Virus record (IMG/VR): IMGVR_UViG_3300037493_004068
Coordinates: 1 to 47,706 of that record
Reading direction: 5' to 3' (one strand)
DNA from: a virus
Length of the DNA stretch: 47,706 bases
The stretch's first letter is position 1, and each line of letters begins with the position of its first letter. Positions 10,880-46,057 of this stretch are shown one piece after another. A model generated the notes under the pieces. It was not told the origin of the DNA. It saw only the letters and a list, made by a program, of their open reading frames with translations, and did no database searches. The position numbers and the translations under genes are program-made.

Positions 10880-10926
10880 GTAAATTGGTGGGCCACCACT
10901 ACGCAGGTTGCCCAGTCGCGTGTTCC

Positions 10927-11139: not shown

Positions 11140-11659
11140 CTTCGTCCTCAAGGTTGGTAAACAGCTTGTTCACGTCGACCTCACCCTCGCCAAACGGCTT
11201 GCCGTCCTTGAAGAACTGCACAGCGCGGAGCTTCGCGTTGATCCGCTTGCCGTACTGGTTGTCCTGACCCCAGAGCTGGATCACAGCGTTGACGTGGCAC
11301 CCAGCGTAGGGCTTGCCGTCCTCCTCAGTGAGGGGCGACATATCGCGGCCAATGACTTGAGGGCGCTTCTCGCTGCGGGCGCTGACGAACATTACGCCGT
11401 CGCCGTAGCCGTCGGTCTCGGCCTTTTCTTCACCATCACGCAGACAGACCTTGGGCGGGCGCTTGCCCTTGAAGACCTCGCGGACGATGTCGTTGATCGC
11501 GGCATTGAGTGCCGCGATTTCCTTGGCGTTGATTTTCTTGTCGAGGATGAAGGTCGCGGAGTACGCGCCCTTGGCATCGGTGGGTGCGAATTTCCTCTCC
11601 CGAAAAAGGGATGGGAACGAGAGTCGCACGTTGTTGAGTTTGATGTTTTGATTTTCCAT
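11123..11659 (-). CDS. DUF2815-like single-stranded DNA-binding protein
   Basis: A 178-residue protein with the features of the phage DUF2815 family: 'LNNVRLSFPSLFRERKF' at the N-terminus, 'YSATFILDKK' and 'GCHVNAVIQLWGQDNQYGKRINAKLRAVQFFKDGKPFG' in pieces across the second half, and an acidic tail ending in DEDESPV. Family members are OB-fold ssDNA-binding proteins with an acidic C-terminal tail that recruits partners. It sits immediately downstream of the DUF2800-like nuclease, the usual partner in many phages. This would coat exposed single strands at the fork. Confidence 0.9.
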   Translation of the reverse strand: MENQNIKLNNVRLSFPSLFRERKFAPTDAKGAYSATFILDKKINAKEIAALNAAINDIVREVFKGKRPPKVCLRDGEEKAETDGYGDGVMFVSARSEKRPQVIGRDMSPLTEEDGKPYAGCHVNAVIQLWGQDNQYGKRINAKLRAVQFFKDGKPFGEGEVDVNKLFTNLEDEDESPV

Positions 11660-11660
11660 G

Positions 11661-16137: not shown

Positions 16138-16265
16138 TTCAGCCACCTCCGCTTGCGCGCCTCTGCGAGCTGCTTGGTCCGTCGAGCTATTTCAGCCTTC
16201 GACAGGGTCTTCTTCTTGCCCTTGGACAGGCGTCCAAGGGCTGCGGCGAGTTGGGAGGGAGTCAT
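16134..16265 (-). CDS. Tiny basic helical protein (43 aa)
   Basis: A 43-residue frame from ATG 16265 to TGA 16134. It reads as one or two amphipathic helices with many Lys and Arg residues (LAAALGRLSKGKKKTLSKAE; ARRTKQLAEARKRRWLK). Its stop overlaps the start of the primase-helicase gene (ATGA), which argues that it is translated. It could bind nucleic acid. No family is recognised, and a gene this short needs its coupling to be credible. Confidence 0.6.
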   Translation of the reverse strand: MTPSQLAAALGRLSKGKKKTLSKAEIARRTKQLAEARKRRWLK

Positions 16266-16313
16266 GGCGGGCGTGGAGGACGATCACGAGCTCGCATTCG
16301 TGTCAAGCGACGA

Positions 16314-16898
16314 CTACTTGATGAACCCTTCGGTCCGGAGATAGTCGACGAGCTTGACGCCAAGGCGAGCGGCAGCTTCTGCCGACGGTTGTCGTGACAT
16401 CGCCATGTTGATCACGTGTATGATCTCCGTGTCAAAGCGCATCGACTCAAACGCGCCGTCGTCCATCCTCCCCGAGCCGTGAAGGTACTGACTGTTGCTT
16501 GTGATTGCATCGAGTTGCGCTCGGTGCTCTTCCAATCGTGCCGCTTTTTTCTTTTTCGTGTGATCGCGCTCGGCGTACTTGGCTCGGAGCTCGGCGAGCT
16601 TGAAGGTCGTGGCAGCGTGCCACCGGAACAGGCGATTCTCCCAATGGGGGTTGTCGAGGTTAATGGTGGCAGACTTGATCACGTCTTGGTAGATCGCGTC
16701 CTTGTCGTCGCAGCCGAGGACAAATTTCGAGGCGCTTACGGAGGTGCGATGGCCACCCTTGACCCTTACGCCGCGCAGGTACATCGAGGTCTCTGTCTTC
16801 GAGCGGAAGGTCCAATGGTTATTGACGATGCTGGTGTCGCTAATCTCCCAGCCGAGGCGGGTGAGAATGTCGCGTAATCTATCGGTGATGTTGAGCAT
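16314..16898 (-). CDS. Hypothetical protein of the early block
   Basis: A 194-residue protein. The N-terminal part (RLRDILTRLGWEISDTSIVN) and the mixed strands around 'YLRGVRVKGGHRTSVSASKF' suggest a small alpha/beta domain. Residues about 93-130 are a long, highly charged helix with KKKK. The C-terminus is helical (AAARLGVKLVDYLRTEG). No catalytic motif was found. It lies in the same orientation as the primase genes and is probably part of the same transcript. Confidence 0.75.
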   Translation of the reverse strand: MLNITDRLRDILTRLGWEISDTSIVNNHWTFRSKTETSMYLRGVRVKGGHRTSVSASKFVLGCDDKDAIYQDVIKSATINLDNPHWENRLFRWHAATTFKLAELRAKYAERDHTKKKKAARLEEHRAQLDAITSNSQYLHGSGRMDDGAFESMRFDTEIIHVINMAMSRQPSAEAAARLGVKLVDYLRTEGFIK

Positions 16899-16902
16899 GG
16901 TG

Positions 16903-17193
16903 TTAATCGGTTTTGACGGACTTGGAAAAAACTTTCACGGCGAAGCAGGGTTTGGTGACGGACTCCACGGAGTAAAGTTCGTCATCAAGTAAGAAAAAAG
17001 GGTGCATCGGAGCGCCCGCCAATATCGCCTTCCACGGCGACTTCTGCGACAACACCGTCGGGGGCGTCGTCGAGTCATCCCACGCAATGTGCGACAGATT
17101 CTTTATGCGGCGAAGCCCTCGTTGCGAACGCAGTTTGACTTCAGACTTATGGCGTTTGTTGAGGACGGTTTTGGCCCAGTAGGTGGTGATCAT
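16903..17193 (-). CDS. Hypothetical basic protein
   Basis: A 96-residue protein with a basic N-terminal half (KTVLNKRHKSEVKLRSQRGL) and a strand-rich C-terminal half (HPFFLLDDELYSVESV; CFAVKVFSKSVKTD). It starts at ATG 17193, 5 nt after the preceding stop. The preceding gene encodes a protein with a similar opening (MIT...) and a similar size class, but the similarity is too weak to call them paralogues. Confidence 0.65.
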   Translation of the reverse strand: MITTYWAKTVLNKRHKSEVKLRSQRGLRRIKNLSHIAWDDSTTPPTVLSQKSPWKAILAGAPMHPFFLLDDELYSVESVTKPCFAVKVFSKSVKTD

Positions 17194-17198
17194 AGTGA

Positions 17199-17417
17199 CT
17201 AGAACGAGGGTTGAACCGCATCTTCTCGCGTATCGACGCGGTCAATACCGTGGTGGGGAGTGAACCGATAGAACGAACGACCGTCGAGGCTTTCGAGCGC
17301 ATAGACGTCGGGACGGTAGTCGCCGGGCGTGGCGATGGAGCAAAGGACGCGGAGGCGCAGGAAGCCGACGCGAACGACGGAGCCTGCGCTCCAATTCTGG
17401 CGGGAACGTGTGATCAT
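17199..17417 (-). CDS. Hypothetical small protein
   Basis: A 72-residue protein. I take the ATG at 17417 as the start because it follows a C/A-rich leader (CCAACATCCAACTACACAAC) like those of its neighbours, and because a longer in-frame extension would cross a terminator hairpin. The sequence is strand-rich (GSVVRVGFLRLRVLCSIATP; VYALESLDGRSFYRFTPHHG). Function unknown. Confidence 0.6.
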   Translation of the reverse strand: MITRSRQNWSAGSVVRVGFLRLRVLCSIATPGDYRPDVYALESLDGRSFYRFTPHHGIDRVDTREDAVQPSF

Positions 17418-17458
17418 GTGTTGTGTAGTTGGATGTTGGTTACTGACGTGGAAAGTTA

Positions 17459-17485
17459 ACCGCCCTCCCCCGAGGGGAGGGCGGT
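17459..17485 (-). terminator. Hairpin terminator after the VWA-metallopeptidase gene
   Basis: A perfect 10-bp GC-rich stem (CCGCCCTCCC with its complement) closes a 5-nt loop, 6 nt after the stop of the leftward VWA gene. On the minus strand it is followed by TTAACTTTCC, a weak T tract. It probably ends or attenuates the upstream transcript. Confidence 0.7.
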
Positions 17486-17490
17486 GATGG

Positions 17491-18771
17491 TCACAGCTCG
17501 ACGTGGACCGTGCGCCCCGTCTGAGCGACGGTGTCTGTGGTCGAGAGCCAGAGGGTGGCGACATCCACGCTCTCTGGCTCGTCTCCGCAGAGGTCGGTGA
17601 GGTAGACCAGACCCGCGACGTTCTCACCGGACTCGACGAGCTCCGCCACTCGGGCGAAGGGCTCGCGGAAGTCGGTGCCGCCGCCGCCCTTGGCGTGCAG
17701 TGGCGCGTCCTCGCCCGCTGCGAGGCGATACTCGGCGTGGATGATCGTGTCGCAGTCCATGACCAGTGCCTCGCAGTTAAGGTCGGCGCAGCACTGCGAG
17801 ATGAGCGCCGTGAACTCCGCCGTCAGCTTGTCGTCGATGCTCCCCGAGGTGTCGCGGACGAACACGACCAGACCAGTCGAGTCCGCCTTGCGGCTCGGGA
17901 TGATCGTCGCCGCCAGCGCATGGCGGCGAGCAGCCCGCGTCCAGTTGTTACGGGTCGCGATGCTGGACTTGAGGAAGTCCGCGCACTCGTCCTTCCAGTC
18001 GAGCTTCACGGGTGCCTTGAGGGCGTCGAGCAGGCGCTGGAGCTCGGCGGGCGCGTTGCCTTTGCCGAGGCTGCGCGAGGCTTGGTCGGCCTGCACCAGC
18101 GCCCGATCCCACCGTTCCTTCATCGTGATCGGGGTCTTGCCGGGTTGCGTTGGGGTCGGCGCTGGAGCCTCGAAACCACCGCACCCGCCAACGTCTGGCG
18201 GGGGCTGACCGTTGGGGTCGGGCTGACCGTTGGGGTCGGGCTGACCGTTGGGGTCGGGCTGACCGTTGGGGTCGGGCTGCGGCTGACCGCCACCCTGCGG
18301 GGGCTGACCACCCTGCGGGGGCTGACCACCACCCTTGGGCGGCGGGGGCGGCGGGGGCGGCGGATTGCGACGGATCGAGGCGAGAACCTCTTCCTCCGCC
18401 AGCCCTTGGTACTTCGAGTCGAGGAGACCACCTTTGGGCATCGAGATGCCCGCGATTTTCGAGAGGATGAGGTTAATGACCAAATCGCCCGCCGTGTTGC
18501 CTTCCGCGTTGATCGGGAGGCGATAGAAATGCCCGTGAGCGCAGTGGAGCGTCTCATGGAGCAACACGAACCGCACTTCCTCGGGGGTGAGCGTGCCGAC
18601 GAACTCGGGGTTCCAGCGGATGACTTTTCCATCGGTGCTGGCAGTGGAGACGCTGGAATCGATCACGTCCTGTAGATTATGGGCGAGACTGCCGTAGAAC
18701 GCGACGTGCGGAGTCGAGAGACTCCACCAGCGTGCTTTGTCGATTTCGATTGGTGTTGGGATGTTGGACAT
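17491..18771 (-). CDS. VWA-like metallopeptidase (DUF2201-type, CobT-like role)
   Basis: A 426-residue protein starting at ATG 18771 after a GATATCACC leader. Residues about 70-85 hold a zinc-peptidase motif 'LLHETLHCAHGHF' (HExxH plus a downstream His). The middle is a low-complexity Pro/Gly/Gln linker with a nine-Pro run and four PDPNGQ repeats. The C-terminal half is a VWA-like domain with the metal-site motif 'VRDTSGSIDD' near residue 306 and 'GGGGTDF' later. This is the fused peptidase plus VWA layout of the DUF2201 family. It neighbours a DUF3150-like gene and a MoxR-like ATPase, and such trios (CobS/CobT-like) are common in phages. Its target is unknown. Confidence 0.9.
   Translation of the reverse strand: MSNIPTPIEIDKARWWSLSTPHVAFYGSLAHNLQDVIDSSVSTASTDGKVIRWNPEFVGTLTPEEVRFVLLHETLHCAHGHFYRLPINAEGNTAGDLVINLILSKIAGISMPKGGLLDSKYQGLAEEEVLASIRRNPPPPPPPPPKGGGQPPQGGQPPQGGGQPQPDPNGQPDPNGQPDPNGQPDPNGQPPPDVGGCGGFEAPAPTPTQPGKTPITMKERWDRALVQADQASRSLGKGNAPAELQRLLDALKAPVKLDWKDECADFLKSSIATRNNWTRAARRHALAATIIPSRKADSTGLVVFVRDTSGSIDDKLTAEFTALISQCCADLNCEALVMDCDTIIHAEYRLAAGEDAPLHAKGGGGTDFREPFARVAELVESGENVAGLVYLTDLCGDEPESVDVATLWLSTTDTVAQTGRTVHVEL
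18205..18276. repeat. Four 18-bp tandem repeats (PDPNGQ linker)
   Basis: Four perfect copies of an 18-bp unit (CTGACCGTTGGGGTCGGG on the + strand) encode PDPNGQ four times in the linker of the VWA-metallopeptidase. Copy number may vary between relatives through slippage. Confidence 0.9.
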
Positions 18772-18797
18772 GGTGATATCGGTTGTAGGGTGATGCA

Positions 18798-19598
18798 TTA
18801 CAGGCTGAACAGTGAGCAGAGGTCGGTCGCACGTTGGGCGACGTTGGCACGAGCGATCGGATCGTCTCGGAGGGTGGCGGCGTCGAACTCGGTGAGCTCG
18901 GCGGCTTGGGCCGCAAGGGCGGCGATCTGGGGGTCATCGCGGAGATTTAAATCCGGTACCAGAGCGAGAATCTCGCTAAGGTTCGACACCAGCGTGTCAC
19001 GGAAGATGCCTTTGGGGTCGCGCAACTTTTGCGCCACCTTGAGGATCGCCTCGCTCAAACGCTCGCGCAGCTCGTCCTGAGCCGCCTTGCTGGCCTCGTC
19101 GATCCACTCAGCCCACTGACCGACGTCGGGGACGGGGAGGTAGCGGGTCGCAAAGGAGAACCGAGCCGCCACGACGTCGTGGGATGGCCATTGGCTGGCG
19201 ACGTAGAGACCGTTGAGGCGGGCTGGAGCCTCTGCACGCACGCGGTCGTAGTCGGCGAGGAACTGGGAGACGAGGGTGTCGATCCGTACGCCGAACGACT
19301 GCATGAGCGCACTGTGCTCAAACTGGCGGGCGGCGGGGAGGAGCCGCAGCCCTTTGTCGGCGGCGGGGAGCGTGAGCCGATAGTGCTCGGCGCGGGCCTC
19401 CGTGTGGAGGCGGGCGATCTCTTCCAAGGCGGGGTGGTTGCAGATCTTGACGTCGACCCGCGCTTCGTCGCGCAGACCGTGGCGGGCATTCTCGGCGGCA
19501 GTTTCGGCGGCGTGGCGTTTGACGGTGCGCCATGCGCCCACGTTCAACGTGGCGATGACGGCTTTTGATGACAGGCGGGCGGTGGTGGGAGCATTCAT
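18798..19598 (-). CDS. DUF3150-like protein
   Basis: A 266-residue, mostly helical protein. Its order of features fits the DUF3150 family of phages: a short N-terminal strand and helix, 'HYRLTLPAADKGLRLLPAARQFEH', then 'VSQFLADYDRVRAEAPARL' and 'ARFSFATRYLPVPD'. The C-terminal part is an Ala-rich helical bundle. DUF3150 genes are typically next to a MoxR/CobS-type AAA ATPase and a VWA protein, exactly as here. The ATPase is upstream and the VWA gene is 26 nt downstream. The start ATG follows the same GATATCACC-type leader as the VWA gene. Molecular role unknown; probably an adaptor of an ATPase-driven remodelling complex. Confidence 0.8.
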   Translation of the reverse strand: MNAPTTARLSSKAVIATLNVGAWRTVKRHAAETAAENARHGLRDEARVDVKICNHPALEEIARLHTEARAEHYRLTLPAADKGLRLLPAARQFEHSALMQSFGVRIDTLVSQFLADYDRVRAEAPARLNGLYVASQWPSHDVVAARFSFATRYLPVPDVGQWAEWIDEASKAAQDELRERLSEAILKVAQKLRDPKGIFRDTLVSNLSEILALVPDLNLRDDPQIAALAAQAAELTEFDAATLRDDPIARANVAQRATDLCSLFSL

Positions 19599-19642
19599 GG
19601 TGATATCTGTTTTTGGTTGTTATGGATTGAGAACTGAAGAGA

Positions 19643-19679
19643 GCCGCCCCCAGCACTATTGGAAAGTGCTGGGGGCAGC
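19643..19679 (-). terminator. Strong hairpin after the AAA ATPase gene
   Basis: A 15-bp stem with one G-T wobble (core CCCCCAGCACT with its perfect complement) and a 7-nt loop lies just after the stop of the leftward AAA ATPase gene and before the DUF3150-like start. It is followed on the minus strand by a pyrimidine-rich CTCTCTTC tract. It could be a terminator or an mRNA stability element between the ATPase and the DUF3150/VWA pair. Confidence 0.7.
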
Positions 19680-19690
19680 TCGATGAGGTC

Positions 19691-20725
19691 TCAGGTGGTG
19701 AACAGTGCTTGGTTAGCCAACCACCACTCTTGCCAAGCCTTGTTGCCCACGAGCTTGGCACCGAGGCGCGAGAACGCATCGCGGGCGCAGTACGCGCCCA
19801 TCACTCGCGGCAGGCGACCGATGTACGTGACGAGCTGGGCGGCATACTTGGCCTCGACTGCCCGACCGAGCATCGCGGCGATCAGGTACTGGGCTGCTGG
19901 GTCCGTGGGGACCGGAGCGCCGTGGGGGTCCATCCAGACTTGCTGGGGGGTCGGGAGCTGATCGGCGAGGGCGGCGAACGCGAGGAACTCCGCAGCGGCA
20001 GGTTTGCCGATGGCCGAGCTCACGATCTTAAAGCTCCGCAGCCCGCTCTCCCAGAGGTGACCCACGGTCTCCCAACTGCGGAAGTCGGGCATGCGGAGGG
20101 CTGGGTCGGCGCACGGTTTCCAAGCGTACAACGTGCGTCCCGTAGTGGCGCGGTGCCACGCGATGATCTCTGGCGCGAAGCCCTGTTCCGACGCCCAGCG
20201 AGCCCACGCGTCTACCTCTTCGCGCCACGTCGCGAGGTAAGTGGGGCCATCGGCTTTGTCCTCGGTGGTGGGCGTTGCAATGGCAAATGCACTATTGAAA
20301 CGGGAGCGCAGTGCCTCGTTGAGCGAGGTCACGCCCGCCTTGTCGCCGGGTCGATTGGTAGCGCCCCAGATCAAGACGTGGCGGGAGATCGCGTTGTCGT
20401 CGAATAACGCCATCGCGCTGGCCTGAACGTCGATCGGCGCTTGGCCCAGATCGTCCAAGAAGAGCAGGGTCGGGACCGTCGCGTTCCGGAGCTTGTAGAG
20501 CAGCTCCAGAGGGAGCGACTCGGTCACCCCTTTGGCTTGGTTCGGGACGTAGCAACCGCCGAGGTCTACGCGGTCGGCCTGAGCCGCCCGAAAGAGGATG
20601 AGCTTGCGGTTGCACTGGAGCGCCGCGTCGGCGACGCGGGCGGTTTTCGCACAACCGGGCGGCCCCACGAGGAGGACGCGGCGGTTGGCGTTGAGGAGAT
20701 CGATGAGTTCGGATGATGAGGACAT
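19691..20725 (-). CDS. MoxR/CobS-like AAA+ ATPase
   Basis: A 344-residue AAA+ protein starting at ATG 20725. The reading frame stays open for 200 more codons upstream, but that part is Pro/Thr/Ser low-complexity sequence lying over another gene, so I reject it. Walker A 'LLVGPPGCAKT' is near residues 18-28, Walker B 'LLFLDDLGQ' near 89-97, and sensor 1 'IWGATNRPGD' follows. An Arg-finger-like 'EALRSRF' precedes the C-terminal lid. The class is that of MoxR/CobS ATPases, which remodel a client with a VWA partner. The partner gene is two genes downstream. The leader is C/A-rich (CCAATCCAATCCAACC). Confidence 0.9.
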   Translation of the reverse strand: MSSSSELIDLLNANRRVLLVGPPGCAKTARVADAALQCNRKLILFRAAQADRVDLGGCYVPNQAKGVTESLPLELLYKLRNATVPTLLFLDDLGQAPIDVQASAMALFDDNAISRHVLIWGATNRPGDKAGVTSLNEALRSRFNSAFAIATPTTEDKADGPTYLATWREEVDAWARWASEQGFAPEIIAWHRATTGRTLYAWKPCADPALRMPDFRSWETVGHLWESGLRSFKIVSSAIGKPAAAEFLAFAALADQLPTPQQVWMDPHGAPVPTDPAAQYLIAAMLGRAVEAKYAAQLVTYIGRLPRVMGAYCARDAFSRLGAKLVGNKAWQEWWLANQALFTT

Positions 20726-20768
20726 GGTTGGATTGGATTGGCTGACGTTGTTGTTGTTGGGCTGAGAG

Positions 20769-21221
20769 TTAGTTGGTGAGGTCGAACACGCGGTTGATGG
20801 CATACTCGGCGTCGGCGTGGGCGTCGTAGGTGTCGCCTGAGCCGTCGTCGGCGGCGGCGGCAGTGCGGGCCGCGACGGACACGGCGAGCAGGGCCGCGTC
20901 GAGGGCTGCGAGGGCTGCGAGGATCGCAGCCTCGTCGCGCACCACCGGACCTTTGATGGCTTTTTTGAGGGCTGCGTCGGCCTTCTCGAACGCTGACGCA
21001 GCGTCGTTCGCGGCCTGCACGGTGGCTGGCGTGGATTCGAGGTACAGGCGGCGACCCGCTTGGTCGTACGCCGTCGAGGTGGCCTCGACGGCTTTGCTGA
21101 GGATCGCGAGCCCCTCGTCCCTAGTGTGGAGCGTGCGGGCTTTTTGAAGGGCTGCGGCGAGGTACGTGTCGAGGGCGACGATGGCGGCTTGGCGTGAGGT
21201 TTCGTATGAGGATGAGTACAT
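20769..21221 (-). CDS. Ala-rich helical protein
   Basis: A 150-residue protein, almost entirely helical by composition and very rich in Ala and Asp (e.g. AANDAASAFEKADAALKKA; AAILAALAALDAALLAVS). No catalytic motif. A second Ala-rich protein of similar style lies at 21920-22204, so they may be distant paralogues. The high Ala content leaves several frames open here; the 'MYSSSYETSRQAAIVALDTYL' N-terminus and gene-sized length support this one. Confidence 0.6.
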   Translation of the reverse strand: MYSSSYETSRQAAIVALDTYLAAALQKARTLHTRDEGLAILSKAVEATSTAYDQAGRRLYLESTPATVQAANDAASAFEKADAALKKAIKGPVVRDEAAILAALAALDAALLAVSVAARTAAAADDGSGDTYDAHADAEYAINRVFDLTN

Positions 21222-21262
21222 GGGAGGCGGAGGTCTAACGTCGAGGCAACTGGACTCGTCAG

Positions 21263-21297
21263 CAGTGCAGAGAGCACTGGACGCCCCGTGGGGGCGT
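21263..21297 (-). terminator. Two adjacent hairpins after the 21304-21681 gene
   Basis: ACGCCCC-GTG-GGGGCGT (21281-21297) and CAGTGC-AGAGA-GCACTG (21263-21279) are two short perfect hairpins side by side in the gap between two leftward genes. No clear T tract follows on the minus strand, so a processing or stability role is as likely as termination. Confidence 0.5.
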
Positions 21298-21303
21298 TTC
21301 GTC

Positions 21304-21681
21304 CTATGGGGTGGGGCGGGTAATGAGCCACGCCCGTTTTACGTGGCAGAGCGGCGAGGTCGTGATGGCGTCGTGAGCCACGCCATCGATCAGGGCGAAG
21401 GCGTGACCGCGCGTATTGACCACCAGTCGGCCCACTGGGTAGTCGCGGAGCAGTCTCTCGACTGAGCCGCTGCGGCGCACGACCCGAGCCGTGAGGCCGA
21501 GGTCGCGGGAGACTGACTGCATGACCAACCGGAGGGCGACGCCGCGTCGGTTTTTGCGACCGTGAGCGGCGAAGACCGCGTGCACCGTCTCGTATGCTGC
21601 ACCGCTGACGTTGGTGAGTGCTCGCACCGTGCAGTCGCGGTGTTCATTGATGCCCTCCGAGGGTGTGATGGTGGTGGTCAT
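21304..21681 (-). CDS. Small putative cysteine-peptidase-like protein
   Basis: A 125-residue protein starting at the ATG at 21681, just 4 nt after the preceding stop; a further upstream ATG would overlap that gene. 'INEHRDCTVRALTNVSG' near residues 11-27 and 'NTRGHAFALIDGVAHD' near 92-107 form a Cys ... His ... Asp pattern. This resembles the NlpC/papain-like arrangement in small phage proteins of the DCxVRAL type. Whether it is an active peptidase or a pseudoenzyme is not decided by sequence. It lies in a string of small early genes, which would fit a host-takeover role. Confidence 0.65.
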   Translation of the reverse strand: MTTTITPSEGINEHRDCTVRALTNVSGAAYETVHAVFAAHGRKNRRGVALRLVMQSVSRDLGLTARVVRRSGSVERLLRDYPVGRLVVNTRGHAFALIDGVAHDAITTSPLCHVKRAWLITRPTP

Positions 21682-21685
21682 GGGA

Positions 21686-21910
21686 TCAGCGGTGGTCGTC
21701 GTCGTCGGCGTCGAGCCATGCCTTGGCAACCGACGCCGTGCCGTTGGTGGTGGGGAGTAAGACGACCTGTCCGGTGGCCGTGAGGACGATCATGGCGGGG
21801 TGGTACTTCTCGGCGGCGTAGGCCGCGTCGTCGAACAGGTCGGCGGTGGCGACGACCTCTTCGTGACGGTTGAGGATTTCGTAACGGGGGACGTAGGTGG
21901 TGGATTTCAT
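21686..21910 (-). CDS. Small acidic protein, unknown
   Basis: A 74-residue protein with a strand-helix-strand pattern (YEILNRHEEVVATADLFDD; AMIVLTATGQVVLLPT) and an Asp-rich C-terminus (DADDDDHR). It is the second gene of the leftward early block. Acidic proteins of this size in phage early regions sometimes mimic DNA, but no specific feature supports that here. Confidence 0.7.
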   Translation of the reverse strand: MKSTTYVPRYEILNRHEEVVATADLFDDAAYAAEKYHPAMIVLTATGQVVLLPTTNGTASVAKAWLDADDDDHR

Positions 21911-21919
21911 GGTGGAGAG

Positions 21920-22204
21920 TTAGGCTGCGGTGGTGAATGCACCAGTGGTGGCGGTCGTGTAGTCGCACTCCGCTAAGGTCGCGGCGTCCCACGCCGTGAA
22001 GGCCGCTTGTCGGGCGGCGAAGGTGCGGGCGGAGGCGGCGTCTGCGGCGTCGGCCTCGTAGAGGGCGGCGGAGAGGGCGGCGCGGGCGGCGTCGACTGCG
22101 GACTGGGCCGCGCTGGCGCGGTCGTAGGCGGCGCGGTCGGCGATGCTCGCCGCCGACCATGTGGCGTAGGTGAGGGCGGAGGCGTTTTCGTAGGTGGTTT
22201 TCAT
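21920..22204 (-). CDS. Ala-rich protein, first gene of the leftward block
   Basis: A 94-residue Ala-rich helical protein (AAYDRASAAQSAVDAARAAL) with a Thr-rich ending. It begins at the first ATG after a long structured leader, so it is probably the first translated gene of the 16-kb leftward transcript. It shares its composition with the protein at 20769-21221. Function unknown. Confidence 0.6.
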   Translation of the reverse strand: MKTTYENASALTYATWSAASIADRAAYDRASAAQSAVDAARAALSAALYEADAADAASARTFAARQAAFTAWDAATLAECDYTTATTGAFTTAA

Positions 22205-22930: not shown

Positions 22931-23206
22931 ATGGAGACGATTTACGACCACCACTACCACAATCCGGATTTGAATCCGAAAAAGCGATACAGGCAACGGC
23001 AGCGTGATCGGTTCCGCTGCATTGAGTGCGCGCAGCCAACGGTGCCGGGTTACGTGCGGTGCCAACGCCACCTCGTGGTGCGGCGGGCGCAGCGGGTGGG
23101 TGAGTCAACCAAGGCTACGGCTCGAAAGCACGAGCGAGCGAGGGTCGCAATGTGGCTCCTGATGCTCGAGGCTCGGGTCCGTCGTGGTCAGGCCGATGTC
23201 ATTTGA
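22931..23206 (+). CDS. Small zinc-finger protein
   Basis: A 91-residue basic protein with a CxxC...CxxH cluster near residues 29-47 (CIECAQPTVPGYVRCQRH), a typical zinc-binding knuckle of small phage DNA- or RNA-binding proteins. The N-terminus has 'YDHHYHNPDLNPKKRYRQRQ' and the C-terminus is Arg-rich. Its stop codon (TGA, 23204-23206) forms the first bases of a TGAGACTCAGTCTCA palindrome. It is probably regulatory or a DNA-binding accessory. Confidence 0.65.
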   Translation: METIYDHHYHNPDLNPKKRYRQRQRDRFRCIECAQPTVPGYVRCQRHLVVRRAQRVGESTKATARKHERARVAMWLLMLEARVRRGQADVI

Positions 23207-23218
23207 GACTCAGTCTCA
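23204..23218. promoter_or_regulatory. Palindromic operator site 1
   Basis: TGAGACTCAGTCTCA, a perfect 15-bp palindrome with 7-bp arms and one central base, extended to 17 bp by flanking T and A. It lies about 300 bp upstream of the HTH gene. Identical or one-mismatch copies occur at 23477, 24306, 24328 and 24344. Confidence 0.75.
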
Positions 23219-23476
23219 ATAAGGTCAAAAACAGGGCTTTCGTAAGTGCCTGAAAACAGGTGGTTTACGTGAGTCGAAACAAACGGGTCGAAATCGATTC
23301 CTAGGCCCATTGCGGCCAATCCTCGGGGGGTCTGGAAAAAACGGAGGCACTGGTATAGGGTGTCAGATGATTTGTTGGGGGACCATGCACTTACGTGATT
23401 TCGGAATTTCGGAATAGGGGCCGCAGAATCGATTTAAACGGGGGTGGGCGATTTAGGGCTTGATTTAGGGGCTTAT
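23219..23476. other. Non-coding region upstream of the HTH gene
   Basis: About 260 bases without a gene. The tandem TTTCGGAA-TTTCGGAA at 23401-23416 and three GATTTA-led direct repeats between 23431 and 23470 are the visible structures. It presumably carries the promoter of the HTH gene. Confidence 0.5.
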
Positions 23477-23491
23477 TGCGACTGAGTCTCA
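23477..23491. promoter_or_regulatory. Palindromic operator site 2
   Basis: TGCGACTGAGTCTCA differs by one base from the complement of site 1 and ends 11 bp before the ATG of the HTH gene. Binding here would block initiation of that gene, so autoregulation is likely if the HTH protein is the binder. Confidence 0.65.
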
Positions 23492-23502
23492 GCGACACAA
23501 CT

Positions 23503-24180
23503 ATGGCTCGTCAAACTGGAGAACGTCAGCGAGTGCAATCGGTCGATTGGATCGCGCTACGCCGCGCATTCATCGAGCGGCCTGAGCGACCGATGCTCGA
23601 AGATCTCGGCAACGAGTTCGGCGTGAGTCGCGACCGCATAAACAGAGCGTCTGGTGAGGAGGGCTGGGCAACGCTCCGCGCAGCGCATCTGGGTGAGCGC
23701 CTCAAGGTCGCTGACGCAGGTGTCGCCCTGCTCCAAGCGGCCAAGGCCGACTCCGCCGTCACCCACGCATTCACCGATGTCGCACTGGAGGTCGTGAGAG
23801 AAGTGCATGGCGTGGTGGCGCGACTGGGCAACAAGAAGCTGGCAGAGAACACGCGAGCCAACACCCTTAACACCTGCGCGTTCACGCTGTCCAATCTGGC
23901 CAACGCCCTCGCTCGAGTCGGCGTGGTGGGGTTGCCCAAGTCGCTGAAAGAGAGCGCTGGGGTGGACAGTGGCAACGGTCGCTGGAACCCCGCGATGCTG
24001 GCGTCCTTGAACGTCACGGTCCAGAACCTGATGCAGCCAGCGCCTGCGGTCGTCGTCACGGAGGCCCAGCCTGCGCCAACGGCTGCGATCCTCGGGGGGT
24101 CCGAGCGCCGGATCGGTCTCGACGCCACCAATCTGGTGCAGGACGATGCCGTGAGGGTCGCCGCCGACGACGTTCTGTGA
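23503..24180 (+). CDS. HTH DNA-binding protein, candidate small terminase or regulator
   Basis: A 225-residue protein starting at ATG 23503; a TTG nine codons upstream lies over an operator and is unlikely. Residues about 13-55 form a helix-turn-helix of the small-terminase style (EDLGNEFGVSRDRINRASGE followed by EGWATLRAAH). The next 90 residues are helical and could be an oligomerisation domain. The C-terminus is Pro/Ala-rich and probably flexible. Palindromic sites lie on both sides of the gene, and no other small terminase is visible near the large terminase. A packaging-site-binding TerS is therefore one candidate; an autoregulating repressor or a partition protein are others. The family is not certain. 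Confidence 0.7.
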   Translation: MARQTGERQRVQSVDWIALRRAFIERPERPMLEDLGNEFGVSRDRINRASGEEGWATLRAAHLGERLKVADAGVALLQAAKADSAVTHAFTDVALEVVREVHGVVARLGNKKLAENTRANTLNTCAFTLSNLANALARVGVVGLPKSLKESAGVDSGNGRWNPAMLASLNVTVQNLMQPAPAVVVTEAQPAPTAAILGGSERRIGLDATNLVQDDAVRVAADDVL

Positions 24181-24242
24181 CGACCGTCACCGAACCGGAA
24201 GCGGCGACAGGGGGTTGACGCCGCAACCGGATGTCAGGCGTA

Positions 24243-24300
24243 ATCTGAACCACGATCTGAACCACGATCTGAACCACGATCTGATCCATGATATGATACA
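24243..24300. repeat. 12-bp iteron array
   Basis: Three perfect tandem copies of ATCTGAACCACG (24243-24278), a fourth with two changes (ATCTGATCCATG, 24279-24290) and a degenerate fifth. The array lies directly before the palindromic sites 3-5, in the gap between convergent genes, so it is unlikely to be an ordinary promoter. Iterons of this size are typical of replication origins and centromere-like sites. Confidence 0.85.
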
Positions 24301-24305
24301 GAGAT

Positions 24306-24358
24306 TGAGACTCAGTCTCAGTGCGATTGAGACTCAGTCTCAGTGAGATTGAGTCTCA
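24306..24358. promoter_or_regulatory. Cluster of three palindromic sites (3-5)
   Basis: TGAGACTCAGTCTCA occurs twice perfectly (24306-24320 and 24328-24342, start-to-start 22 bp), and TGAGATTGAGTCTCA once (24344-24358). The 22-bp step is close to two helical turns, which favours cooperative binding on one face. A C-rich tract with runs of eight or more C follows at 24361-24390. Between convergent genes such a cluster suggests an origin, a packaging site or a partition site rather than a promoter. Confidence 0.8.
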
Positions 24359-24459
24359 ATATCAACACCCCACCCCCCCCGCCCCCGCCCTGCATAAGCA
24401 TATACCCCTCTCAGATTCCGCTATAGTTTTTCACTATTCACGAATAAACAAATTCTGTT

Positions 24460-25320
24460 TTAGACCTCTAAAATCCGCTCCAACTTAGCCCGAATCTCAG
24501 GCGTAACGCCTCTACGGGACCAAAAGTAATGCACAGGCGACACCAACGGTCCATGAGTAGACACGTCATCTCCAAACAGGTTGTAGTCCGTCTCACCAAT
24601 TGGCTTCCCATCTTTGCCCCGTTCCAAGGGCGTTATGCCGTGATCCCGCCAGTACTCGCTTGGAGTCACGACTCGCGTGACCACAGCGTACCGTTCACGC
24701 CACTGCCCTGACCCCAAGGCAAACCCACCGATGGTTGGAAACTCTGCAAAGGTCTGGGGGAATTCGTTCCTTTGGAGCAACACGTATTGAGTAAATGGAT
24801 ATCCGTGGCGGTCTTCGACCCATGTCCGCATCTCGCGGTACATCTCGGTCCAAAACACCCCCGGATGTCTGACCATGGTCTCCCACGGCATTTCAAACCC
24901 AAGGGCGTGCTCGACGCACTTCTGCCACGAAGCCCTCGCCCCGTAGTGGGAGAAGTCTGCGTACCGCTCACGCACCAATATCGGTTTCCCCCCGCGCATG
25001 AACGTCTCCACCGAGAACGGCTCCTTGAAGACGCAGTCGGAGTCGATGTGAACCACCAGATCCGTGCCCTTGGGCACCCACAGGTCAGCCTCGCACTTTA
25101 CGACCTGATGATGGAGAAAACCCTTCCCAGCGGCCTCGTAAAACAACCGCAGATTGCATCCATGCTTCTTCGCCAACCGTTCAAATAGTTCACCATCCTT
25201 GTACGGCACCACAATGGTGATGCCCGCGAACCCTTGACCGAACTTGGCAATTGAGCGAAGGGTGTACGACGTGAAGTCGAAGTCGGGGGCGTAGGTTACG
25301 AGAAGGATCTCAGCTTTCAA
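24460..25320 (-). CDS. GT-A glycosyltransferase-like protein (DUF6492 type)
   Basis: A 286-residue protein starting at TTG 25320, which overlaps the TGA of the upstream gene (TTGA), so the unusual start is well supported. The N-terminus 'AEILLVTYAPDFDFTSYTLRS' is the nucleotide-sugar-binding strand and helix of a GT-A fold. 'LVVHIDSDCVF' near residue 92 contains the metal-binding DxD (DSD). Later 'EFPTIGGFALGSG' and 'SPVHYFWSRRG' complete the family pattern. It probably transfers a sugar to a surface or virion component. It is the last gene of the leftward operon before the operator cluster. Confidence 0.85.
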   Translation of the reverse strand: MKAEILLVTYAPDFDFTSYTLRSIAKFGQGFAGITIVVPYKDGELFERLAKKHGCNLRLFYEAAGKGFLHHQVVKCEADLWVPKGTDLVVHIDSDCVFKEPFSVETFMRGGKPILVRERYADFSHYGARASWQKCVEHALGFEMPWETMVRHPGVFWTEMYREMRTWVEDRHGYPFTQYVLLQRNEFPQTFAEFPTIGGFALGSGQWRERYAVVTRVVTPSEYWRDHGITPLERGKDGKPIGETDYNLFGDDVSTHGPLVSPVHYFWSRRGVTPEIRAKLERILEV

Positions 25321-26069
25321 GTGCGTAAGAAAAAATCAGAGTTGTAATTGGAAGATCGGGAGATCAATTCGCCATGGTTTTCGTAATCTTTTCGGTCCAA
25401 TACAAACCTATCGTAAACGCACCCATTGTTGGCCGATTCAAGATCTTTTATGTCGCAGCAAATGTGGAATTTTTGCAAATCCAGTTTAACTCCGTTGCGA
25501 TGCAAGGATGAAAAATCGGCATCCGACGAGATTGGGAGATACCCAAGGTTTTTTACTCGGGGCTTCAAAACTTTAGTATTTCTCCATAACGCTTGAGAGC
25601 ACCAAAACTCGGCATTGAGCCGAGTCCCAAAAGAAATTGATTGGGGGTCTTCAAGGGTTTTTACGTAGGAACTTCTAAACCAAAAAAAATTCCCTTTGAA
25701 ATGTCTATACCACATGCATCCGACTAAGTCTGCCCCACGTTCAAGATGGATGCGGCAAATTTGATGGTTATCCAATACTCCATCAGCCATGTAGTTTAAC
25801 CACGCCAAACCGTTTTCAATCTCGGCATCGTCAATTTTGCTCGAGCTTTTGCAGTGAAGGTAGAGCCCGTGGAAATCCTCAACGTGACTATCGAGCCACA
25901 GGCGTTGAAGAGCTGGGTACTCAAACTCTGAGGGGAGCGAGTCAACAATGACTAGGTTGCTTCTAGGTATTCCAGACCGCTCAACCCGATCCATTAACGT
26001 GGACAAAGATCGTGCGAGATTGGGTAGCCCACGGTTGGCACTGATGTAAATTCTAACAGGTTTGTTCAT
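25317..26069 (-). CDS. Glycosyltransferase-like protein
   Basis: A 250-residue protein. 'PVRIYISANRGLPNLARSLSTL' opens like a GT-A fold. The central 'ADLVGCMWYRHFKGNFFWFRSSYVKTL' region, split by its HF-GNF motif, is characteristic of sugar-transfer proteins with an HFxGNFWW motif in polysaccharide clusters. Base composition is clearly more AT-rich than in the capsid genes, a sign of recent acquisition. It is translationally coupled to the DSD glycosyltransferase downstream. Confidence 0.7.
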   Translation of the reverse strand: MNKPVRIYISANRGLPNLARSLSTLMDRVERSGIPRSNLVIVDSLPSEFEYPALQRLWLDSHVEDFHGLYLHCKSSSKIDDAEIENGLAWLNYMADGVLDNHQICRIHLERGADLVGCMWYRHFKGNFFWFRSSYVKTLEDPQSISFGTRLNAEFWCSQALWRNTKVLKPRVKNLGYLPISSDADFSSLHRNGVKLDLQKFHICCDIKDLESANNGCVYDRFVLDRKDYENHGELISRSSNYNSDFFLRT

Positions 26070-26119
26070 AAATTGAATGGGTTAACGGGATTGACCCCGT
26101 GCCAGTAACCCAAAAGTAA

Positions 26120-26593
26120 TTAAATTAAATCTGACGGGTGAAAAAATTCGGCTTCGTCTATGGGAAAGAAAGTGTTTTCCTGAAACACATAGAAAGACCC
26201 CATGCAGTCACCTTTGCTCCTAGTTGCCTTTGTATCGTACAATAGTTCGATACCGTTACTATCAACCACGGTCCACGAGAGTAACACATTGTCGGCCATT
26301 TTCACCAACATGCGGCCAACTACTCCCAAGAGTTTTGCACGTTTCGCCAATAGATTTATTTTTTCCGTCGTGACAATTATTGTCGACCAACTGAATTGGT
26401 CCATGGATTCGCTACGGTTTCGGATAACGGCAATCTCCTCAACCTTGCCGTTTTTTTGAAACGATACCGCGAGCTGACTTAACGGGTCTGGGTCAATAAC
26501 GGGCTTAAACCCCTTGATGCAGGCGTAAAATTGTGCGGTTTGATTGCGGTTTTGAATCGCGGTCTGTCCTTGATGGGTTTGATAGGCGTACAT
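26120..26593 (-). CDS. Hypothetical protein
   Basis: A 157-residue protein starting at ATG 26593, only 2 nt after the preceding stop. It has no recognised motif. The segments 'EKINLLAKRAKLLGVVGRML' and 'NVLLSWTVVDSNGIELLYDT' suggest a mixed alpha/beta fold. A 50-nt AT-rich gap separates it from the next gene. Confidence 0.65.
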   Translation of the reverse strand: MYAYQTHQGQTAIQNRNQTAQFYACIKGFKPVIDPDPLSQLAVSFQKNGKVEEIAVIRNRSESMDQFSWSTIIVTTEKINLLAKRAKLLGVVGRMLVKMADNVLLSWTVVDSNGIELLYDTKATRSKGDCMGSFYVFQENTFFPIDEAEFFHPSDLI

Positions 26594-26595
26594 GT

Positions 26596-26853
26596 TTAGC
26601 AGTTCCAAGCTTTCCTACTCCAGTGGTTGGCGGAGAGTTTGCCGTCACCGCCCTCGATCCCTCCGCTGCGGGCGCAGTACGACTTCTTGCGTGCGGGCTG
26701 GTCTTTCTTGATCGACATCTTGGGATCGCCGAAACGGACCAGCTTTACCTTGTCGCCAGACTTGGCTAGCACGGCAGACTTTTTCGTCGCACCCGGAGTG
26801 CGCTTGGGGGCATTGTATCCAGCAAAGACCATCCCTCGATATTTGATACTCAT
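26596..26853 (-). CDS. Conserved phage protein with the 'RxSYCARSGG' signature
   Basis: An 85-residue protein whose ATG at 26853 overlaps the stop of the upstream glycosyltransferase (ATGA). It has 'MVFAGYNAPKRTPGATKKSA', 'DKVKLVRFGDP', 'ARKKSYCARSGG' and 'LSANHWSRKAWNC'. This is the pattern of a small basic protein conserved in many environmental phages, which I know by its sequence rather than by function (it resembles DUF6321). It is highly basic and may bind nucleic acid. Confidence 0.75.
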   Translation of the reverse strand: MSIKYRGMVFAGYNAPKRTPGATKKSAVLAKSGDKVKLVRFGDPKMSIKKDQPARKKSYCARSGGIEGGDGKLSANHWSRKAWNC

Positions 26854-27755
26854 ATGGACGCAGATTTGAAGAACTCCTGCCACTGTGGCAAGACCTCTGG
26901 CCAATCGAATCGTTTCATGGCTTCACGACCTCGTTCACACCGGTCGGTAAATGCATTGGGATTATCTTTGTACCACAGCAGACGTTCGACCGCAGCCCTC
27001 CGAAAGTCATCAATGTTGGACGGTAGTAATTCTGCGATGCCGAGTGCCGTCAGTTCGGCAGTGTTACCAACCGCAGACGTCAGCACCAGCCGTCCGCTTG
27101 CAGCCGCCTCCAATTGCGGGATCGGAGCCGTTTCGTAGAGCGCACTCGCCAGAATGCAATCCACGGTCTGCCAGTATTGGGGGACGGCGAGGTAGTTGTA
27201 GGAGTGGGCAGGACGAAACTCCAACCCAGCCGAGGTTGCACATTCCTGCGCCAGATACCCGCGTTTGAACTCCACTCCGAAATGATTCTTTCGATCCATT
27301 GCGGTGCCGTATCCGACCGTCTTGAGCTCCTTTGGAATCGACCCAGCATATCGGGACAACGTCAGCCCGATAGGGAGGACTTGCGGAATGCGTCGGACAC
27401 CCATCGAAAGCGAAATTGAGAGCAGGTTATGGCTGGGGACGGCGTAGCCAGCTACTTTATCAAACAGCGCGTCCACCTTTTCGTTCTTGGCTTTCGTGAT
27501 GTCGTAGTCGCTGTAGCAGAACACGACTATTTTTTCGGGTGGGACTTGGTACTGATTGACCAGCACATCCAGCCCAGAAGCGATTGTGACCACTCGGTCG
27601 TACTGACTCGCGATGAGGGCTACTTCCTCACGGCTGTAACTAACCAGCCACGACAATAGGTCAGACTGCCAACCGCGAGCGCAGAGGTGCTTGACCAGTT
27701 CTTGATGGATGAGCCCGAAAGCCCATTTTGGATCTACGAAGAATAGAATTTTCAT
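26850..27755 (-). CDS. GT-B glycosyltransferase
   Basis: A 301-residue GT-B protein of family GT4/GT1 style. The acceptor-side domain (KILFFVDPKWAFGLIHQELV) is short. The hinge strand is 'KTVGYGTAMDRKNHFGV' and the donor domain includes 'DCILASALYETAPIPQLEAAASGRLVLTS', with the E-x7-E in 'ETAPIPQLEAAASG'. The start ATG overlaps the preceding stop (ATGA). It is one of three sugar-transfer genes in this leftward block. Confidence 0.85.
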   Translation of the reverse strand: MKILFFVDPKWAFGLIHQELVKHLCARGWQSDLLSWLVSYSREEVALIASQYDRVVTIASGLDVLVNQYQVPPEKIVVFCYSDYDITKAKNEKVDALFDKVAGYAVPSHNLLSISLSMGVRRIPQVLPIGLTLSRYAGSIPKELKTVGYGTAMDRKNHFGVEFKRGYLAQECATSAGLEFRPAHSYNYLAVPQYWQTVDCILASALYETAPIPQLEAAASGRLVLTSAVGNTAELTALGIAELLPSNIDDFRRAAVERLLWYKDNPNAFTDRCERGREAMKRFDWPEVLPQWQEFFKSASI

Positions 27756-28309
27756 ATTTTGTTTAGTTTGTGGAGCAGGTTAAAGATTGGGACAACGATC
27801 CATCGGGGAATCCAAGGCCACGGGAAGACAAACTTGTACGGCCCAGAATCCGGTATCAGCATCGGCGTATCGCCGTTAATGACTCGGACGTAGACCGGCT
27901 CTCCATCGGAGCGAGAGATGTCGAGCATCACGCCAGTGGTGGGCTCGGACGATTGATCGGACCAGTTGCCGATGTCGACGTCGGTCTCCTTGCCGTGACC
28001 TTTGCAGTCGTGCGCCGTGACCCGTATGTTCGTCGATCCACCTTTGATTGTAACCCCCATCGTGCCACGAAACACCAACTCGTCGACCGTGATGTTGACG
28101 AGGTTGCACTGGTTGTTGACGTCGATGCAGTCCTCCATGCCCGAGGTCACTGATGGGAATTTCCCGTAGAAGTTGGTCAGCCCGGTGGAGAACTTTAGCG
28201 TATCCGAAATCTCGGGACCGGGCACGATGGCTCCGTCGGGCGTGAGATCGACCGACTGCCCGTTATCCTGCGGACCGTTAAAGCTGATGAGGTTGATGTC
28301 TTTGTTCAT
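27752..28309 (-). CDS. Beta-helix-like protein with hydrophobic C-terminus
   Basis: A 185-residue protein starting at ATG 28309, overlapped with the previous stop (ATGA). Repeated short strands with regularly placed Asn, Asp and Gly (GMEDCIDVNNQCNLVNITVDE; GVTIKGGSTNIRVTAHDCKG) suggest a short right-handed beta-helix, as in pectate-lyase-like phage proteins. The C-terminus has a Trp/Pro-rich hydrophobic stretch (PWPWIPRWIVVPIFNLL) that may contact a membrane. Role unknown; a virion or host-surface-binding protein is possible. Confidence 0.6.
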   Translation of the reverse strand: MNKDINLISFNGPQDNGQSVDLTPDGAIVPGPEISDTLKFSTGLTNFYGKFPSVTSGMEDCIDVNNQCNLVNITVDELVFRGTMGVTIKGGSTNIRVTAHDCKGHGKETDVDIGNWSDQSSEPTTGVMLDISRSDGEPVYVRVINGDTPMLIPDSGPYKFVFPWPWIPRWIVVPIFNLLHKLNKI

Positions 28310-28659
28310 TTTGCGCCCTCCCATTTCCGGAGCGTGCGAAGGAATGCTTCGGCGCGCTGCGCGGCGGTGGCAGAAGCTCGGTCAGCAACGTAATCTACGT
28401 GCGGTCCGTGTTTTACGATGTCGTCCAATATGCGGATGAACTCCCAGTAAGTGCTTCCGTCAGGCAGCACCTTCTCTGCCTCATGCAGGGCGTTGAGGTC
28501 TTGCGTGTAATTGGGGAGTGATACTTCGTATCCGCGCCGAGGCGGAACACCATAGGGGGATTTCCCGCGCTCTGGTGCGCCTGCACCCTTTATAGCGAGA
28601 CGGCACTTCGTCCACCCGCACGCCTCCGCGATGGCGATACGTTGTGAGTCGGGGCTCAT
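28306..28659 (-). CDS. Phage ABA-sandwich-like protein
   Basis: A 117-residue protein resembling the phage ABA-sandwich domain family: 'AIAEACGWTKCRLA' at the N-terminus, 'SLPNYTQDLNALHEAEKVL' in the middle and a helical C-terminus. It overlaps its neighbours by ATGA on both sides. Proteins of this family are common in phages and have no assigned role. Confidence 0.8.
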   Translation of the reverse strand: MSPDSQRIAIAEACGWTKCRLAIKGAGAPERGKSPYGVPPRRGYEVSLPNYTQDLNALHEAEKVLPDGSTYWEFIRILDDIVKHGPHVDYVADRASATAAQRAEAFLRTLRKWEGAK

Positions 28660-28889
28660 TTCGCGCCTTCCGTTGCGGCTTTCCGCATTTTTATGAGCAT
28701 GGAATGCTCTTCATCAGTGATGAACACTTTCTTTATCCCCATGCTTATGAGCATCCTACTGGTACTGCTTGCGTGTAGGGAGCTGAACGATTTTGCGAGA
28801 CCTCCCGAAAGGATGTGTTTTCGGAGTTCGGTTCTCAGTTTATCCTCCGGAGTTTTTCTCTTACCGTAGGTGTATATTCGCGTGCTCAT
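28656..28889 (-). CDS. Small basic protein, unknown
   Basis: A 77-residue protein from ATG 28889. It is rich in Lys and Arg (YTYGKRKTPEDKLRTELRKH), with a C-terminal helical part (FITDEEHSMLIKMRKAATEG). A longer in-frame start would overlap the upstream gene and is not favoured. No family is recognised. Confidence 0.6.
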   Translation of the reverse strand: MSTRIYTYGKRKTPEDKLRTELRKHILSGGLAKSFSSLHASSTSRMLISMGIKKVFITDEEHSMLIKMRKAATEGAK

Positions 28890-28897
28890 TTGTTGGT

Positions 28898-29275
28898 CTA
28901 TGTTTCGTAAGCGATAAAGTAATTTTCTACGCGTTGCGCGTAATCGTCTCGGTCGGAATTTTTTCTGCGGACCAATGCTCCACTCCAACCGCGATTCCAC
29001 ATTAACGCCAAAAGGTAGGGAGTGGGTCGAATGTCCAAAACGTGTAGACGGCGAATAAACTTGTTCAGACGTTGTTCTGCCAGTTCACGGGAAAATTTTG
29101 GGTCAGTGGCTTTCTTAAAATCTTCCTTGGTCTCCTCTGACCAAGTGGCTTTTGACCATTGTAGCCCACCCCCCGTCGAGGTCCACGAAGAGTTTTCAAC
29201 CGCTTCGATGGCTCGAACCAATCGGGGGACGTCAGGGTTTCCGACAAAGCCTAGAATAATCGCGAGGCCGATCAT
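28898..29275 (-). CDS. Lysozyme-like protein, candidate endolysin
   Basis: A 125-residue protein starting at ATG 29275, overlapped with the recombinase stop (ATGA). 'RLVRAIEAVENSSW' with a central Glu, then 'GGGLQWSKATW' and a helical C-terminal half with 'LLALMWNRGW', match the order seen in lysozyme-like domains: a catalytic Glu in a helix, a Gly-rich loop with Q and T, then helices. The size is near that of small phage lysozymes, but the catalytic assignment is tentative. The holin-like genes lie far away at 5236. Confidence 0.45.
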   Translation of the reverse strand: MIGLAIILGFVGNPDVPRLVRAIEAVENSSWTSTGGGLQWSKATWSEETKEDFKKATDPKFSRELAEQRLNKFIRRLHVLDIRPTPYLLALMWNRGWSGALVRRKNSDRDDYAQRVENYFIAYET

Positions 29276-29880
29276 ATGGGGCTGTTTGTCCTCGCGGTCT
29301 GAGCCAGTCGGAATGCCGTTGATACTGACACCCCACCCAAACGATTGGCCAACTCCCGCACTTGAGTCGCGCCTTCCTTGAGCCACTGGGATACGATTTC
29401 GCCATGGTTCTCGGGCAGGCGCTTTGACGGCTTGCCGAGCTTTACGCCTCGGGCTTTTGCCGCTGCAAGGCCCGCCTTGGTGCGCTCAATGATGAGCGAA
29501 CGCTCAAACTCGGCCACAGCAGCAAGGACGTGCATCTGGAGCCGTCCTGCGGGGTTGGCTTTGGAGGTGTCGATGCCTTGACCGGGGCACACCAGCGCCA
29601 CCCCGTGTTTGTCGAACTCCGCCACGAGCTGGGCGAAGTGCGAGAGCGACCTAGCCAACCGGTCCAGCTTCACAACAAGGACCGCGTCGTATCGCTTTTG
29701 CCGGACCTGTGCCAGCATCTTGTCCAATGCCAGACGAGTGGACTTGGAACCCGAGATCGTATCAACGAACGTGTCGGCCACAATCCAGCCACGTTGGGCG
29801 GCGTAGGCTTGAAGCTCCATCTTCTGAGGATCAGTTGTCTGATCGTCAGTAGAGACCCTGAGATACAATGCAATTTTCAT
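29272..29880 (-). CDS. Small serine recombinase (resolvase/invertase type)
   Basis: A 202-residue serine recombinase starting at ATG 29880; another in-frame ATG ten codons upstream is possible. 'IALYLRVSTDDQ' carries the nucleophilic Ser (residue 10) and the preceding Arg. 'VLVVKLDRLARSLSHF' has the conserved LDRLARS, and 'EFERSLIIERTKAGL' is the start of the long dimerisation helix. The C-terminus holds a helix-turn-helix (GATQVRELANRLGGVS). The length fits resolvases and invertases rather than large serine integrases. It may resolve dimers or flip a phage segment; the 17-bp palindrome just upstream of its gene could be part of its site. Confidence 0.93.
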   Translation of the reverse strand: MKIALYLRVSTDDQTTDPQKMELQAYAAQRGWIVADTFVDTISGSKSTRLALDKMLAQVRQKRYDAVLVVKLDRLARSLSHFAQLVAEFDKHGVALVCPGQGIDTSKANPAGRLQMHVLAAVAEFERSLIIERTKAGLAAAKARGVKLGKPSKRLPENHGEIVSQWLKEGATQVRELANRLGGVSVSTAFRLAQTARTNSPI

Positions 29881-29920
29881 GGACCACACTCTGGTTCGAT
29901 GACCACTCATGTGTAAAGAA

Positions 29921-41076: not shown

Positions 41077-44188
<3,112 letters not shown>

Positions 44189-44200
44189 TCCTAAAACATC

Positions 44201-46048
<1,848 letters not shown>

Positions 46049-46057
46049 TCGTACATC

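Follow-up and report, generated by a model that had tools for sequence, protein, structure and literature searches.

The closest described counterparts of the locus presented here are the packaging sites of SPP1 and lambda, together with the iteron-type replication origins. In SPP1, pac overlaps the promoters, the ribosome-binding site, and the start of the gene for the small terminase subunit (TerS), and the TerS sites pacL and pacR flank the cut (PMC6316719, PMC4856287). In lambda, the three sites of cosB that are bound by gpNu1 (TerS) adjoin bent AT-rich DNA (PMC4856287). Moreover, the TerS proteins characterized so far mostly bind DNA weakly and with little sequence specificity (PMC9611059).

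The locus compared with them lies in an IMG/VR virus record of 47,706 bp from an uncultured phage, analyzed at full length and called here the window. The locus proved to be a genuine cis-acting system, local and conserved, and its TerS-like gene is very divergent. The reading developed below, in which a divergent and probably autoregulated TerS-like protein would possess its own packaging-recognition region, is put forward tentatively, with somewhat less than even confidence. The features concerned are the following (no strand is given where none applies):

22931–23206, plus strand: small basic ORF (91 aa) immediately preceding the HTH gene, with a CxxC...CxxH motif resembling a zinc knuckle
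23204–23218: perfect palindrome TGAGACTCAGTCTCA (17 bp with its flanks), overlapping the stop codon of the 91-aa ORF
23219–23471: noncoding spacer with the short blocks GTAAGTG or GTAAGTC and AATCGATTTAA, common to six of six phage copies
23477–23491, minus strand: palindrome with one mismatch; 11 bp separate its end from the HTH start codon
23503–24180, plus strand: HTH protein of 225 aa, proposed to be TerS-like, with an N-terminal HTH, a helical middle, and a low-confidence C-terminal tail ending in ADDVL; the start codon is the ATG at 23503
24177–24190: second dyad, GTGACG-AC-CGTCAC, at the HTH stop codon
24243–24290, plus strand: iteron array of the 12-bp direct repeat ATCTGAACCACG, with three exact and about 1.5 degenerate units
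24303–24361: array of three palindromes (24306, 24328, and 24344), where a long hairpin is possible (DNA fold z = -4.1)
24364–24390, plus strand: C-rich tract CCCCACCCCCCCCGCCCCCGCCC, C-rich in six of six phage copies
24416–24475: AT-rich block (70% AT) containing the conserved CCGCTATAGTTTTTCACTATTCACGAA
30148–32133, minus strand: putative large terminase (TerL) of 661 aa, with Walker A GCGSVGKT and Walker B ILLDEAQ, motifs assigned by eye

In the surrounding window, minus-strand replication genes occupy 4–22 kb, portal- and capsid-like genes (candidates, assigned by reading) are found from 33 kb onward, and collagen-like genes extend from 41 kb to the window end. Long tandem repeats run through the collagen-like genes (41077–47706) and the record ends inside them, while the contig of one relative, L007, begins in sequence resembling the same genes. 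The stretch from 14000 to 22000 is a GC-rich block (58–66%, the rest being at about 55%) in which GC skew is positive across the minus-strand genes. The 91-aa ORF and the HTH gene form a small rightward unit that faces a leftward gene ending at 24460. From there, a variable region with glycosyltransferases (24460–29300) separates the HTH locus from a serine resolvase/invertase gene (29272–29910), and the contigs of several relatives break at the borders of this region. The resolvase gene, present in all relatives examined with 72–100% identity, is located directly downstream of the TerL candidate, for whose product Pfam, PHROGs, and PDB sequences gave no match despite its clear Walker motifs.

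Exact copies of the 15-bp TGAGACTCAGTCTCA are located at 23204–23218, 24306–24320, and 24328–24342, and copies with one mismatch, read on the minus strand, at 23477–23491 and 24344–24358. These are the five palindromes that an earlier sequence-only reading had placed on both sides of the HTH gene. Its further statements, that a 12-bp iteron array starts at 24243 and that the downstream cluster lies between convergent genes, proved equally correct, with gene ends at 24180 (plus strand) and 24460 (minus strand). When up to three mismatches are allowed, TGAGACTCAGTCTCA has 13 matches against 0.94 expected, a number that none of 100 dinucleotide shuffles reaches. Furthermore, the five matches to TGAGACNNNGTCTCA with up to two mismatches in the 47,706 bp all fall within 23.2–24.36 kb.

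Across three phages, 16 sites with at most one mismatch keep the outer TGAGAC and GTCTCA nearly invariant around a variable center (TCA, TGA, or TGG), and the sites are therefore best written as TGAGAC-N3-GTCTCA. The counterpart of the 23204 site in the relatives L006 and L007, the first site in both, reads TGAGACTGGGTCTCA, which maintains the half-sites and changes the center. A long stem formed by the copies at 23204 and 23477 (RNA fold z = -5.2) was considered as a conserved structure and rejected, since in L006 and L007 the stem is disrupted by changes that have no compensating partner. The pattern is thus better explained by a dimeric protein contacting the two half-sites than by distant copies pairing in a hairpin.

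The 6-bp half-sites spaced by 3 bp, and the operator 11 bp ahead of the start codon, are typical features of dimeric HTH repressors. They favor a local autorepressor, i.e., an ordinary dimeric HTH regulator acting on 15-bp operators at its own gene, in which case the downstream dyads would serve as a hairpin terminator between the convergent genes. Folding dyads of differing sequence, present at the corresponding convergent position in all lineages, speak for it as well. However, in the window the identical sequence, and not the fold alone, recurs both upstream and downstream, and the conserved C-rich and AT-rich blocks would be superfluous in a terminator. In addition, a promoter scan of the region yielded two sites against 1.3 expected from shuffled sequence, i.e., no excess, and the HTH domain aligns with TerS-type domains (see below) and not with the HTH control family tried. 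An autorepressor of this kind is considered unlikely. No intrinsic terminator (hairpin followed by a T run) was found at 24300–24360 on either strand, and Rfam returned no match.

Relatives of the HTH protein are encoded in the IMG/VR contigs L006 (89%), L007 (68%), L008 (61%), and L009 (70%; best segment), and further ones in L142/L160 and L159 (50%) and in L129 (53%), a 7.4-kb contig binned to a Verrucomicrobia genome; among plasmid records, none encodes a relative. The L129 contig carries the HTH homologue with an integrase, an excisionase-like HTH, and a Prim-Pol/AAA_25 protein, an arrangement reminiscent of a phage satellite carrying its own TerS. A weak Verrucomicrobiota match in G216 was discarded, its frame running across ordinary host genes (dTMP kinase, lysine–tRNA ligase).

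A palindrome scan across the collection returned at least 119 stretches, including the L006 contig, and the search in related phages that had been suggested as a check was successful, as L006 and L007 have sites at corresponding places. The exact GAGACN3GTCTC occurs nowhere else in these two contigs (43 and 56 kb), and this restriction of the palindromes to the surroundings of the HTH gene in the window, L006, and L007 points to a local function. In L008 and L009, the palindromes are absent, and different upstream dyads, CAATGAATATTCATTG, and different downstream repeats, GTAGGCAAC, are found; the downstream repeats of L160 are different again. The iteron array, in turn, is longer in L007 and degenerate in L006, and L008, L009, and L160 lack it. 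Common to six of six aligned phage copies are the C-rich tract, the AT-rich block with CTATTCAC, the upstream GTAAGT and AATCGATTTAA, and a dyad, TGACGryCGTCACCGA, that coincides with the HTH stop codon or follows it closely. This conservation of the layout while the repeats change argues for a cis-acting site rather than a chance cluster. The 91-aa ORF has strong tblastn matches only in L006 (97%) and L007 (86%), and a small CxxC/CxxC ORF, recognized by eye, occupies the corresponding position in L008, L009, and L160.

Two observations concern individual elements of this layout. Firstly, the central dinucleotide of TGACGryCGTCACCGA is AC or GT (window, L006–L009, and L160), i.e., flipped relative to a fixed flank; TGACGryCGTCA was considered as a serine-recombinase site and rejected, as the window contains no second exact copy. 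Secondly, L007 carries an inserted gene (10920–11813) that weakly matches HNH endonucleases (E 0.0019), directly beside the conserved AT-rich block, at the place opposite window positions 24465–24479.

Like iteron-type origins, such as SPP1 oriL at gene 38 (PMC6316719), the locus combines repeats at the gene of the presumed binder with an AT-rich block. If it were a replication origin, an HTH initiator would bind the upstream operator and the downstream iteron-like and dyad sites, and melt the AT-rich block. The 12-bp iterons, the palindrome array, the C-rich tract, and the AT-rich block, which ranks among the record's 60-bp stretches of highest AT content, lie together within 230 bp and thus provide the direct repeats and AT-rich element of an iteron-type origin. 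Moreover, conserved flanking blocks accompany repeats that vary from lineage to lineage, the replication genes lie to the left and are divergently transcribed, and cumulative GC skew turns at about 24 kb both in the window and in a complete relative. However, the skew turns from plus to minus, which is a better fit to a terminus, and it follows the GC-rich segment. The variation of the repeats between relatives, with iterons degenerate in L006 and missing from other lineages, also differs from iteron-type origins, as does the HTH protein itself, which matches no replication-initiator family and has TerS-type proteins as its only distant links. The origin was one of three options in the sequence-only reading; its repeats, C-rich tract, and conserved AT-rich block are indeed found together, and the initiator is the part that the family searches did not supply. 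With the repeats, the AT-rich block, and the turn of the skew in its favor, this option keeps its standing, as an unlikely one.

Another of the three options, a centromere-like partition site of a phage-plasmid, gained no support. An array of identical dyads adjoining a DNA-binding gene, in a genome with a serine resolvase, would suit such a site. However, neither ParA nor ParM is found among the window genes scanned, a scan confined to the part of the genome present in the record, and the resolvase is located 5 kb away, beside TerL. Partition is thus regarded as highly improbable.

The HTH gene is a mosaic. Between the window and L007, nucleotide identity in the HTH body (23492–24030) is 60–72%, and lower at the very start, the palindromic blocks 23472–23491 (the same in three phages) and 24303–24361 are identical, and most other flanks reach 93–97%. 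In trees, the L007 HTH protein branches outside those of the window, L006, L008, and L009, and the replication genes group L007 with the window and L006. The HTH domain of the window is nearer to that of L008 (68%), which has no palindromes, than to that of L007 (61%), which has the same palindromes. Thus, the HTH body has been exchanged and the palindromes have not, which leaves two cases: both bodies recognize one and the same site, or a different protein uses the palindromes. As far as sequence can tell, the evidence on the HTH protein reading the palindromes is mixed.

In the second case, the palindromes would be bound by the small zinc-knuckle protein, by some other protein of the phage, or by a host factor, and the HTH gene would be an exchangeable passenger. 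HTH bodies of different clades between the same palindromes, and a left breakpoint that adjoins 23472–23491, would be explained in this way. Nevertheless, the palindromes occur at no other gene, and the HTH gene is found with the same neighboring blocks in six related phage contigs, and another binder is considered improbable. A further conceivable reading is a TerS that acts as a dimeric repressor and would bind 15-bp dyads with high affinity, repressing itself from the upstream sites and using the downstream array as pac. This combination is quite unlikely, yet, if true, a single type of site would set both packaging initiation and the TerS level, and the protein body would be exchangeable between phages while the sites stay. 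It is mainly this exchange of the HTH body without the palindromes that limits confidence in the TerS-like reading and holds it below even.

Several individually weak links point to TerS. The HTH protein has no significant match in Pfam, PHROGs, NCBIfam, or PDB sequences, and no TerS family matches the window's own protein directly. Structure models (mean pLDDT 59–64) predict an HTH at pLDDT of about 77–89, followed by long helices and a low-confidence tail. Foldseek searches with two models gave no match below E 0.05, and the top match of the window model, which is also its best viral match, is a 318-aa protein of Cantare (E 0.086). Cantare gp129 has the same length and is a 35% homologue of a Gordonia phage family that served as a bridge in the profile comparisons. 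When the relative L142 was searched with tblastn against 50,697 phage records, 13 weak matches (E 1 to 6) were obtained, 12 of them in Gordonia phages (all of one family, with gene 1 in 11 cases and DalanDe gene 2 in the other), and the remaining one in Dulem virus 33, one small ORF before the annotated terminase. Moreover, hhalign aligned the HTH family with the actinophage bridge family (A8) at 93.7% (E 2e-7, 49 HTH columns), the controls being the resolvase family of the phage itself, which presumably carries a C-terminal HTH (0.2%), and TerL (0.04%). Members of the bridge family weakly match the terminase-small-subunit PHROGs 1206, 2606, and 509 (E 0.004–0.015, best 0.004), and among six relatives phrog_1206 matches nothing but the G008 HTH gene, as two collinear segments (E 0.0098 and 2.8). 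The locus thus shares a homologous HTH domain, by profile comparison, with the Bendigovirus/Cantarevirus family (Gordonia UBSmoodge gp1 and Hanem gp1; Brevibacterium Cantare gp129), and in both the gene lies several genes from TerL. However, the HTH domain alone aligns, and no repeated palindrome was found near the genes of that family. In this way, the option of a pac site with its TerS from the sequence-only reading gained support from profile comparison and, more weakly, from the fold search.

In the packaging reading, the HTH gene would encode a strongly diverged DNA-recognition protein of TerS-like type, with the palindromes as its sequence-specific sites. Through the two upstream sites, the protein would probably control its own gene, while the downstream cluster of palindrome array, C-rich tract, and AT-rich block would act as a pac-like packaging-recognition region. 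There, the HTH protein may assemble, bring TerL, and start the packaging of concatemeric DNA. Palindrome binding by the HTH protein, autoregulation, packaging, and cutting at the locus are all inferred. As in SPP1 pac and gp1, a functional element at the TerS gene, here a proposed one, would have recognition sites to either side that overlap its promoter region, and an N-terminal HTH with a helical core is predicted. Unlike in SPP1, where pacL and pacR have no common sequence and TerS and TerL are neighbors, the sites here are identical 15-bp dyads, with more of them 3’ of the gene, and TerL is distant. The R sites of lambda are not palindromes, unlike the sites of the window, and a search for a cohesive-end site like that of lambda found none here. 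As in lambda cosB, three repeated sites are placed by an AT-rich block beside the proposed TerS gene, and gpNu1 has a dimeric DNA-binding domain (PMC4856287).

Several points weigh against packaging. Adjacency of TerS and TerL is usual, if not strict, and here the TerL candidate, which itself matches no TerL profile, lies about 6 kb from the HTH gene on the opposite strand, in addition to the missing direct TerS match of the window protein. The TerS proteins solved so far bind weakly, mostly without clear specificity, and are thus unlike a dimer on a dyad (PMC9611059). As regards genome ends, the ends of one relative (G004, contig 3300036978_000814; L134/L143/L144) overlap by exactly 127 bp, giving an apparently complete circular map of 63,807 bp that fits a permuted headful genome, although a replicating cos phage could look alike. 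A physical genome end near the cluster, where G004 is cut, was considered and rejected because the 127-bp overlap looks like an assembler k-mer, and contig cuts were likewise not taken as genome ends, since other contigs are cut at the borders of the variable region.

If the tentatively favored packaging reading is true, a TerS-like protein between five dyads of nearly the same sequence would offer an exceptionally clear-cut setting in which to measure recognition, with ready-made natural controls in the sites that keep their half-sites and change their center, and in the exchanged protein bodies. Moreover, the locus would provide a candidate TerS and packaging site for a phage lineage whose TerS and TerL escape current profile libraries.
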